The notes below the pieces were generated by a model that saw only the letters and a list, made by a program, of their open reading frames with translations, ran no database searches and was not told the origin of the DNA. Source: Deltaproteobacteria bacterium (GTDB taxonomy: Bacteria; Desulfobacterota; Desulfobulbia; Desulfobulbales; Desulfurivibrionaceae). From it: a DNA stretch of 40,071 bases. Positions 23,334 to 38,145 of the stretch are shown piece after piece; position 1 is the stretch's first letter; each line of letters starts with the position of its first letter. Location: positions 1-40,071 of the forward strand of contig JAJZRF010000029.1 of the NCBI GenBank assembly GCA_021847425.1, in the 5' to 3' direction. The translations under genes were made by a program, and so were the position numbers.

Positions 23334-23675
23334 CGGGCACCCCTCGGGTAAATGTCATGATTGTTGAAATCGCAGATAAGCGCAGACTTCGGAAAGCCGC
23401 GATTTCAACGGTTATTGTTTTGTCTCTCTTTGATTTTGAGTCACGGACCTGTGACCGTGTTCCCTTTTAGCTGATCCCTCTTGATTGTCACGGAAATAAA
23501 ACACGATATGGCGCATCAGTCGCATGTGCCACCACAATATATGGTACATCATACCCAAAGAGGGGCGTGGGAGGAAGTACTTTTTCAGATAAAAAGCAGG
23601 GAGGAAAAATGGCGGACTGCGCCTTTTGATTGAGGGCGAGGCACCTTTAACACTGCACGACAAGATCCCCTTGAC
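23334..23675. other. Gap upstream of nrdJ
   Basis: This 342-base gap lies between the nrdJ start and the 3' end of a sensor kinase gene; both genes are on the minus strand. Its first half is the structured repeat described separately. The rest (23473-23675) should contain the nrdJ promoter, but I see no clear consensus boxes. An 83-codon minus frame across it (23412-23663) overlaps the repeat and looks spurious. Confidence 0.4.
23363..23472 (+). repeat. Structured repeat, copy A
   Basis: An 11-base perfect inverted repeat (23363-23373 with 23399-23409; GTTGAAATCGC) is followed 30 bases later by a five-base stem GTCAC/GTGAC (23440-23444 and 23451-23455) closing the loop GGACCT, and then a pyrimidine-rich stretch. 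About 70 bases from the right arm onward align without gaps to 37192-37261 with roughly three quarters identity. In this copy the lower hairpin is fully paired. Orientation is given as plus because the base-pair changes between the copies fit plus-strand RNA pairing; it could still be read on the other strand, where it would lie in the nrdJ leader. Confidence 0.7.
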
Positions 23676-37013: not shown

Positions 37014-37338
37014 ACCTTCACCGCTCTTGCACCCGTATTTCTCCGTCCTGCCCCCACTCGGGAGAACCGAACTTCCCGTTTAATTGCCCATGAGATATCA
37101 TGGCCATATTTTCCAATCCTTACCCCCAGCAGGTGCCAGCGGCAAGTTATTTTGTCTTGGCCCCACATTTTGTTGAAATCGCAAACAACCTGCGATTACA
37201 ACGGTTGTTGCTGTGTAACTCTTTAATTTCATGTTGCGGACCTGCGACCTTTTCCCCTTTTTCCGGGTTTGTCACATTTTCATTTGCCTGCAACGCGAAC
37301 CGTTCTTACTCTTCTTCTATCAAGGAGGGCCGGAACAC
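37014..37338. other. Gap upstream of the NorQ-like gene
   Basis: This 325-base gap contains structured repeat copy B (37172-37262) and a strong ribosome-binding site AAGGAGGG (37322-37329). Promoters for the two divergent genes must lie here, but no clear boxes were recognised. Confidence 0.4.
37172..37262 (+). repeat. Structured repeat, copy B
   Basis: An imperfect 12-base inverted repeat (37172-37183 with 37191-37202, one A-A mismatch) and a lower stem GTTGC/GCGAC (37233-37237 and 37244-37248) around the loop GGACCT, followed by TTTTCCCCTTTTT. It aligns to copy A at 23363-23472. Relative to copy A one A-U pair has become G-C and one C-G pair has become U-G, so pairing is kept. It ends about 75 bases before the NorQ-like start codon. 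Confidence 0.7.
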
Positions 37339-38145
37339 GTGAAAAACATCGCCATTACAGAGCATCTTATTACGAAAAAACCATTCTACCTTGAACAAGA
37401 AGAAGAACTGCTCATCGCCAGGACCGCGTATCTCAACTGCCTGCCGATTCTGCTAAAAGGCCCGACCGGCTGCGGCAAAACCCGGTTCATGCAGCGTCTG
37501 GCCTGGGAACTCGCCCGTCCGCTCATCACCGTATCCTGCCATGACGATCTCTCCACCAGCGACCTTGTCGGCCGTTTTCTCATCAAGGGAGGAGAAGCGG
37601 TCTGGATGGACGGCCCTCTCACCAAGGCGGTCCGGGCAGGAGCCATCTGTTATCTCGACGAGATCGTTGAGGCCAGAAAGGACACCACCGTGGTCATCCA
37701 TCCCCTTGCCGATGACCGGCGGGAGCTGCCCATTGAAAAACTTGGGGAAACCCTGACCGCCCCGCCCGAATTCATGCTGGCCATCTCCTACAATCCCGGC
37801 TACCAGAGTGTTCTCAAGGATCTCAAGCAATCCACCCGCCAGCGGTTCGTTTCCTTTGAATTCAACTATCCCCCGGCCGAACTGGAGATCAGCATTGTGC
37901 GGGAAGAATCAGGCATCGAGCAGCCGATTGCGGAAAAACTTGTCCGGCTGGCAGCCATGACCCGGAGCCTGAAAGATTCGGGGCTGCAGGAGGGGGCAAG
38001 CACCCGGCTCCTGATCCATGCCGGCAAACTCATCAAAAGCGGAATCGCCCCACGCACTGCCTGCCGGGCCACGATTACGGAGACACTGACCGATGACCAT
38101 GAAATGCTGGCCGCCCTTGAGGAAATGGCCAGTTCTCTCTTCTGA
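37339..38145 (+). CDS. norQ: MoxR-type AAA+ ATPase of the NorQ/CbbQ family
   Basis: A 268-residue AAA+ protein. Walker A is GPTGCGKT (41-48), Walker B is CYLDEI, and the sensor region is AISYNPGYQ, followed by the QSTRQRFVSFEF segment typical of NorQ/NirQ/CbbQ. These ATPases work with a NorD/CbbO partner to activate or insert metal into a client enzyme (NO reductase, Rubisco or others). The frame is open to 37231, but GTG 37339 has AAGGAGGG nine bases before it and gives a normal N-terminus. The NorD/CbbO-like gene follows after 11 bases. No client enzyme is encoded in the window, so the symbol is by family only. Confidence 0.85.
   Translation: MKNIAITEHLITKKPFYLEQEEELLIARTAYLNCLPILLKGPTGCGKTRFMQRLAWELARPLITVSCHDDLSTSDLVGRFLIKGGEAVWMDGPLTKAVRAGAICYLDEIVEARKDTTVVIHPLADDRRELPIEKLGETLTAPPEFMLAISYNPGYQSVLKDLKQSTRQRFVSFEFNYPPAELEISIVREESGIEQPIAEKLVRLAAMTRSLKDSGLQEGASTRLLIHAGKLIKSGIAPRTACRATITETLTDDHEMLAALEEMASSLF

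Follow-up and report, generated by a model that had tools for sequence, protein, structure and literature searches.

The window analysed here, the whole stretch of 40,071 nucleotides, contains two copies of a repeat on its plus strand, copy A (positions 23363 to 23481) in the leader of nrdJ and copy B (37172 to 37274) before norQ. Both open with GTTGAAATCGC (23363 to 23373 in A, 37172 to 37182 in B), which pairs with a perfect GCGATTTCAAC in A and with GCGATTACAAC in B, where there is one A-A mismatch. Beginning at this 3' arm, 54 of 70 ungapped bases are identical between the two copies; the best other place in the window reaches 32 on the plus strand and 33 on the minus strand. An earlier note on this DNA had described the inverted repeat and an ungapped likeness of about 70 bases, which this comparison bears out, and the lower hairpins with the six-base loop GGACCT are exactly as it gave them: GTCAC-GGACCT-GTGAC in A (23440 to 23455) and GTTGC-GGACCT-GCGAC in B (37233 to 37248). 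Its starts for the two copies also stand, but its extents of 23363 to 23472 and 37172 to 37262 end too early, as the copies reach about 23481 and about 37274, where flanking direct repeats begin.

Copy A, a long-loop form running from GTTG to CCCTCT (the consensus end being CGAGTCCATCA), was delimited by its nhmmer match in locus L186, its sequence and empty orthologous sites. It is flanked by the target duplication TGATT at 23358 to 23362, within TCATGATT, and again at 23482 to 23486. The terminal hairpin, HP1 (23363 to 23409, plus strand), has perfect 11-bp arms and a 25-nt loop. The larger hairpin region that follows, HP2 (23410 to 23456, plus strand), holds the small hairpin and is a predicted fold at which the family is without covariation. 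Copy B is a short-loop form delimited by the same kinds of evidence (nhmmer match in locus L176), with HP1 at 37172 to 37202 and a predicted HP2, including its small hairpin, at 37203 to 37249, both on the plus strand. Its target duplication is CATTTT (37166 to 37171 and 37275 to 37280), the left one reading CACATTTT if the adjoining CA is counted. In the predicted fold of the consensus and of B, the 5' arm of the small hairpin pairs with an upstream GTAAC, within the larger hairpin GGTTAT...GTGACC. The norQ ORF as called starts inside copy B (37231), and alignment with relatives suggests that the true start is near 37339.

The repeat is widely dispersed. A seed pattern searched against the genome that contains the window (2.70 Mb in 121 contigs, 81% complete) gave 9 forward and 8 reverse matches at 15 distinct places, and the reversed control of the pattern gave none in the same 2.70 Mb, so the likeness of A and B is far above chance. 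With the consensus as query there are 26 matches in this genome; some are partial, and one copy accounts for two. The element is present in all 17 genomes searched of the genus and in 6 of 41 other genomes searched, two of these six only at E near 0.001. The exact first-hairpin pattern identified 96 stretches in a genome collection; the 80 listed by title are from metagenome-assembled genomes labelled Deltaproteobacteria, delta proteobacterium, Proteobacteria, proteobacterium, Desulfobulbaceae or Desulfurivibrio; conservation of the first hairpin among copies picked in this way is biased by the choice. The virus contigs searched with the pattern had no match. No Rfam family was found at gathering score in the window or in seven loci, and literature searches, judged by titles and abstract openings, gave no recognised description of the element. 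The end sequences entered as text led, among the papers listed, to unrelated titles. In all, 147 distinct copies were assembled, of which 131 are full-length and aligned.

The element starts with GTTGAAATCGC (or TGTTG...) and ends with CGAGTCCATCA. From 5' to 3', a small hairpin is followed by a larger, imperfect one (GGTTAT...GTGACC) and then by a pyrimidine-rich tail such as CTTTTTCCCTTTTTACGAG. The terminal inverted repeats are imperfect, TGTTGAAATCGCAAAAA and TGATGGACTCGTAAAAA agreeing at 13 of 17 positions of the consensus ends when one T of the left flank is counted as element. The length is about 100 nt, with long forms of up to about 180 nt; full-length copies span about 90 to 179 nt and are too short for a transposase gene. 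The longest match, L187 (179 nt), has a fold of -67.3 kcal/mol that includes long-range pairing. Some copies have extra small hairpins. Such hairpins, of the TCGGCAGCA...TGCCGA type (L097, L168, L210) or containing CCGATGGGTCAAGCCCATCC (L017, L043), seem inserted at differing points of the element, and in L210 one is also found near another repeat end. Tandem copies were seen in L059, L064 and L097, the end of one continuing into the start of the next. By a crude ORF script, 100 of 121 sites are outside called ORFs.

Among orthologous loci, some sites hold the element and others are empty. At norQ, 5 of 9 loci lack it and three of these read CCACATTTTCATTTG once, while the filled site in the window reads CCACATTTT, the element and CACATTTTCATTTG. 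The loci of genomes G016, G006 and G015 have a degraded insert at the same place, judged by eye to lack intact first-hairpin arms; two of these three still match the profile and the third was judged by eye. Of the 17 nrdJ leaders, 12 have no insert, 3 have the element (the window's own genome, G009 and G007) and 2 have a different insert (G004 and G016). A tenth match to norQ, weak and in G014, is left out of these counts, as is another nrdJ fragment of G001. At both genes the target sequence is single when the site is empty and repeated when it is filled. The different insert upstream of nrdJ (L193, L198) lies at the target site of copy A and runs from GTAAT(T/C)GTTCACCATGAACG... to ...GCTGAACGTTTATGA, which makes the nrdJ leader a repeated target.

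Across the family, 62 of 121 copies have an exact direct repeat of at least 5 bases at their flanks, and the other 59 do not. In 200 shuffles that re-paired the flanks, such repeats were seen at 8.7 copies on average and at no more than 18. A stricter position-wise count covers 98 copies (L158 was taken out by name), and A and B are in neither count because their right ends are too diverged for the script. Agreement between left and right flanks is clearly above the shuffled level at positions -3, -4 and -5 (0.70, 0.66 and 0.71 versus 0.38, 0.27 and 0.40) and slightly above it at -6 (0.63 versus 0.53), which gives a duplication of 4-6 bp. On the left the TT at -2/-1 hardly varies, and it is frequent on the right as well, so that it cannot separate duplication from target preference. 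The boundaries of the element are fixed to within 1-2 bases, its exact ends and the duplication length within 4-6 bp being ambiguous.

The dispersal, the boundaries, the empty sites, the duplications and an end held in common with another element of the order are all directly observed, and A and B are very probably copies of one non-autonomous, MITE-like mobile element. The hairpins belong to the element itself. The earlier note had named a mobile repeat as the simpler alternative, and dispersal, empty sites and target duplications have come down on its side. On this reading the gene-less element inserted into A+T-rich, mostly intergenic targets, which it duplicated over 4-6 bp with TT at the end, and spread through the genus. 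It would be moved by a transposase acting in trans, for which no parent candidate was found among the loci searched. Pfam matches in the window's own genome comprise 9 Y1_Tnp, 4 rve and 1 DDE_Tnp_1; 13 loci covering these 14 matches of three Pfam families, in a genome that is 81% complete, contained no pair of element ends. A half-element search for long copies carrying genes gave three pairs of a left and a right half separated by over 500 bases; two of the pairs are separate copies, and in the third (L056) the right half is a weak match (E 0.33).

The window element is less than 500 bp, gene-less, multicopy and dispersed, has terminal inverted repeats within 4-30 bp and target-site repeats, and is mainly intergenic. 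In a review of prokaryotic MITEs (PMC10969869), which covers Correia, ERIC, QMITE and Chunjie of Geobacter uraniireducens, such elements are likewise short, gene-less, multicopy and mostly intergenic, with terminal inverted repeats, target duplications, predicted folds, size variants and clustering; this likeness is one of description. Multicopy intergenic sequences, some palindromic, appear in two papers on Geobacter genomes (PMC2700814, PMC2996986), where a motif GRCGTAGCGCTGCTACGCC is quoted and one family, also in Desulfotalea psychrophila, is called a predicted short RNA family. By these descriptions, the Geobacter families and the window element are alike in being multicopy, intergenic and delta-proteobacterial (PMC2700814, PMC2996986). 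The window element is a new family of MITE-like elements.

The earlier note had read the differences between the lower hairpins of A and B as a compensatory base-pair change and thus as evidence of an RNA, which does not hold in the larger family. In 36 copies found by blastn (alignment A5; of 37 with a suitable length, a second L074 copy was left out), the covariation of the small-hairpin helix is 0.218 against 0.243 when shuffled, and 2 cells are changed on both sides where 2.0 are expected. For HP2 the values are 0.166 and 0.164; HP1, which rarely varies, has 0.017 against 0.012, a level reached by 22 of 500 shuffles. The "compensatory" pair is mixed in the 131 aligned copies: A-T 61, G-T 48, T-T 7, G-G 4, A-C 3, G-C 2, A-G 2, C-T 1 and a gap in 3. 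At position 64, G is opposite T 48 times and opposite C twice, making the G-C pair of copy B a rare combination. Column correlation over the 131 copies (effective number about 63) placed the helix pair 63-74 among the 40 most correlated column pairs, yet its combinations (T-G 63, C-G 35, C-T 12, A-G 11, C-A 5) are mixed and thus not consistently paired. The first-hairpin pairs 6-25 and 11-20 are also in the top 40, each through a single divergent copy.

The earlier note had also claimed from the two copies that the plus strand is favoured. On that strand G-T outnumbers A-C cells by 522 to 133 at the fixed pairs of HP2, a count biased by a geometry that came from the plus-strand fold, and by 32 to 1 in the small hairpin. 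The few cells of the first hairpin with paired neighbours go the other way, 1 to 9. A clearer signal of this kind comes from a related element.

The 18 bases that close the window element's consensus at the 3' end are identical to those with which a second hairpin element begins. On the other strand the common end reads TGATGGACTCGTAAAAAG, and further repeats have it as their left end too. Its exact 20-mer, TGATGGACTCGTAAAAAGTC, was found in 19 of 146 genomes searched in the order, up to 32 times in one genome, and is absent from all 17 genomes of the window's genus. At E 0.001 the typed consensus of the second element has matches, many of them partial, in 59 of 395 genomes of the phylum. The main form carries a long hairpin besides a terminal one of about 25 nt, and is 127-130 nt in 26 aligned copies. 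A right end was recognised at 12 of 30 loci with this left end, and 9 of the 12 have a direct repeat of 4-5 bp. Homology of the two families rests on the common end and the similar layout rather than on the sequence of the hairpins.

Among the 65 loci L235-L299, a script picked out 35 with a second-family hairpin element, from which L256 was dropped as apparently spurious. This left 34 for pairing without an energy model; the 26 of at most 132 nt were aligned, and 19 are in alignment A3, which leaves out L264 and the divergent L283, L288, L289, L293, L294 and L299. In the long hairpin of these 19 copies 94.7% of cells are paired, against 86.0% when shuffled, and 22 of 45 pairs are changed on both sides, against 11.8, with none of 500 shuffles as high. 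The other cells on the strand shown are 64 G-T (in 17 pair columns), 6 A-C (in 2) and 39 of other kinds. With pairing defined free of an energy model, the ratio of G-T to A-C is 55 to 8, 27 to 6 or 13 to 2 according to the flank required. The copies are related and were chosen partly by fold energy, so that these ratios are indicative and no test, and the consensus structure was predicted with G-U allowed. Covariation, together with mismatches that favour G-T over A-C on one strand, supports the structure in the second element. In L235-L264 and L270-L299 the arms of the central hairpin, around CATACATATGGTATG, were also seen to differ between genomes and yet stay complementary.

The nrdJ leader also contains two A+T-rich, palindrome-like repeats at 23501-23518 and 23534-23551, 33 bp apart and seen in the leaders of relatives too. 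They resemble tandem NrdR boxes, and copy A lies between these putative boxes and the nrdJ start codon.

A and B are most likely not regulatory RNAs. The earlier note had proposed that A is an independent small RNA and B the 5' leader of norQ, and there are observations in keeping with this: the plus strands fold at -29.0 (A) and -29.3 kcal/mol (B), against -26.9 and -21.3 on the minus strand, and copy B lies before norQ on the norQ strand. CsrA-binding small RNAs have GGA in hairpin loops, and GGA is kept in the small-hairpin loop of 100 of 131 copies (GATCCT is found in 9 and GAACCT in 5). Against these stand the small-hairpin helix without covariation, the lack of an Rfam match, the absence of any sigma-70-like promoter match in the 401-base region around A or that around B, and a norQ leader without the element in 5 of 9 genomes and with a degraded one in 3; before nrdJ it is missing in 14 of 17 genomes, two of which have the other insert. 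Nor is orientation relative to genes consistent. Among sites called with the crude ORF caller, for copies at least 700 bases away from the locus ends, both neighbours run against the element at 35, both with it at 23, divergently at 32 and convergently at 10, and 21 are inside ORFs. A functional RNA at either gene is thus extremely improbable. The excess of divergent (32) over convergent (10) sites, the position of A in the nrdJ leader and a terminator-like stem in A (23442-23459) could instead mean that single copies have been co-opted as promoter-region elements or weak terminators. This is improbable, since a preference for A+T-rich targets can account for the position, 12 of 17 nrdJ leaders are without any insert, and terminator-like sites number 1 in the A region against 0.4 by chance and 3 in the B region, all upstream of B and none inside it.

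The two remaining alternatives concern how the element moves. REP sequences are hairpins in intergenic DNA, and the hairpins and mostly intergenic sites of the window element, along with the 9 Y1_Tnp matches in its own genome, are what a REP-type sequence moved by a RAYT (a Y1 transposase) would have. The window element differs in its target duplications, observed together with empty sites, and RAYT movement is not known to leave such duplications; with no pair of element ends within about 1.5 kb of 8 Y1 loci, this reading is very improbable. A stronger claim than mobility is that the hairpin of the mobile element is selected as a single strand, RNA or ssDNA, the element being moved as ssDNA, moved through RNA, or carrying a small RNA. 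In its favour are the 22 of 45 covarying pairs of the second element, its G-T excess (64 to 6, and 55:8, 27:6 or 13:2 free of an energy model) and the 522 to 133 of HP2. These have to be set against target duplications that indicate ordinary integration, HP2 and the small-hairpin helix of the window family without covariation, and the 1 to 9 of its first hairpin; kinship moreover inflates the cell counts, and the second-element copies were picked partly by fold energy, with G-U allowed in the structure. Single-strand selection is therefore unlikely, if less so than the other alternatives. Like co-option it is compatible with a mobile origin, and the chances given to these readings and to the MITE-like element overlap for that reason.

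Given the structural constraint seen in its relative, the fold of the MITE-like element may have a strand-specific role, either in movement or as an RNA. It is possible, though doubtful, that there is a superfamily of mini-elements in many genera of the phylum, with the common end TGATGGACTCGTAAAAAG, short duplications and a hairpin kept on one strand by compensatory change, in which the mobile unit is a folded single strand.

A compensatory change between two copies should not be taken for RNA function, as the signal vanished with more copies. What has been gained is a defined repeat family in a group for which metagenome-assembled genomes were used here, with insertions before nrdJ and norQ and known empty sites for both. 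With a wider relative that has a covarying hairpin and a seeming strand preference, the mode by which such mini-elements move becomes testable. If the superfamily exists, its members would be either MITE-like elements that require a structure on one particular strand or a mobile family of small RNAs.
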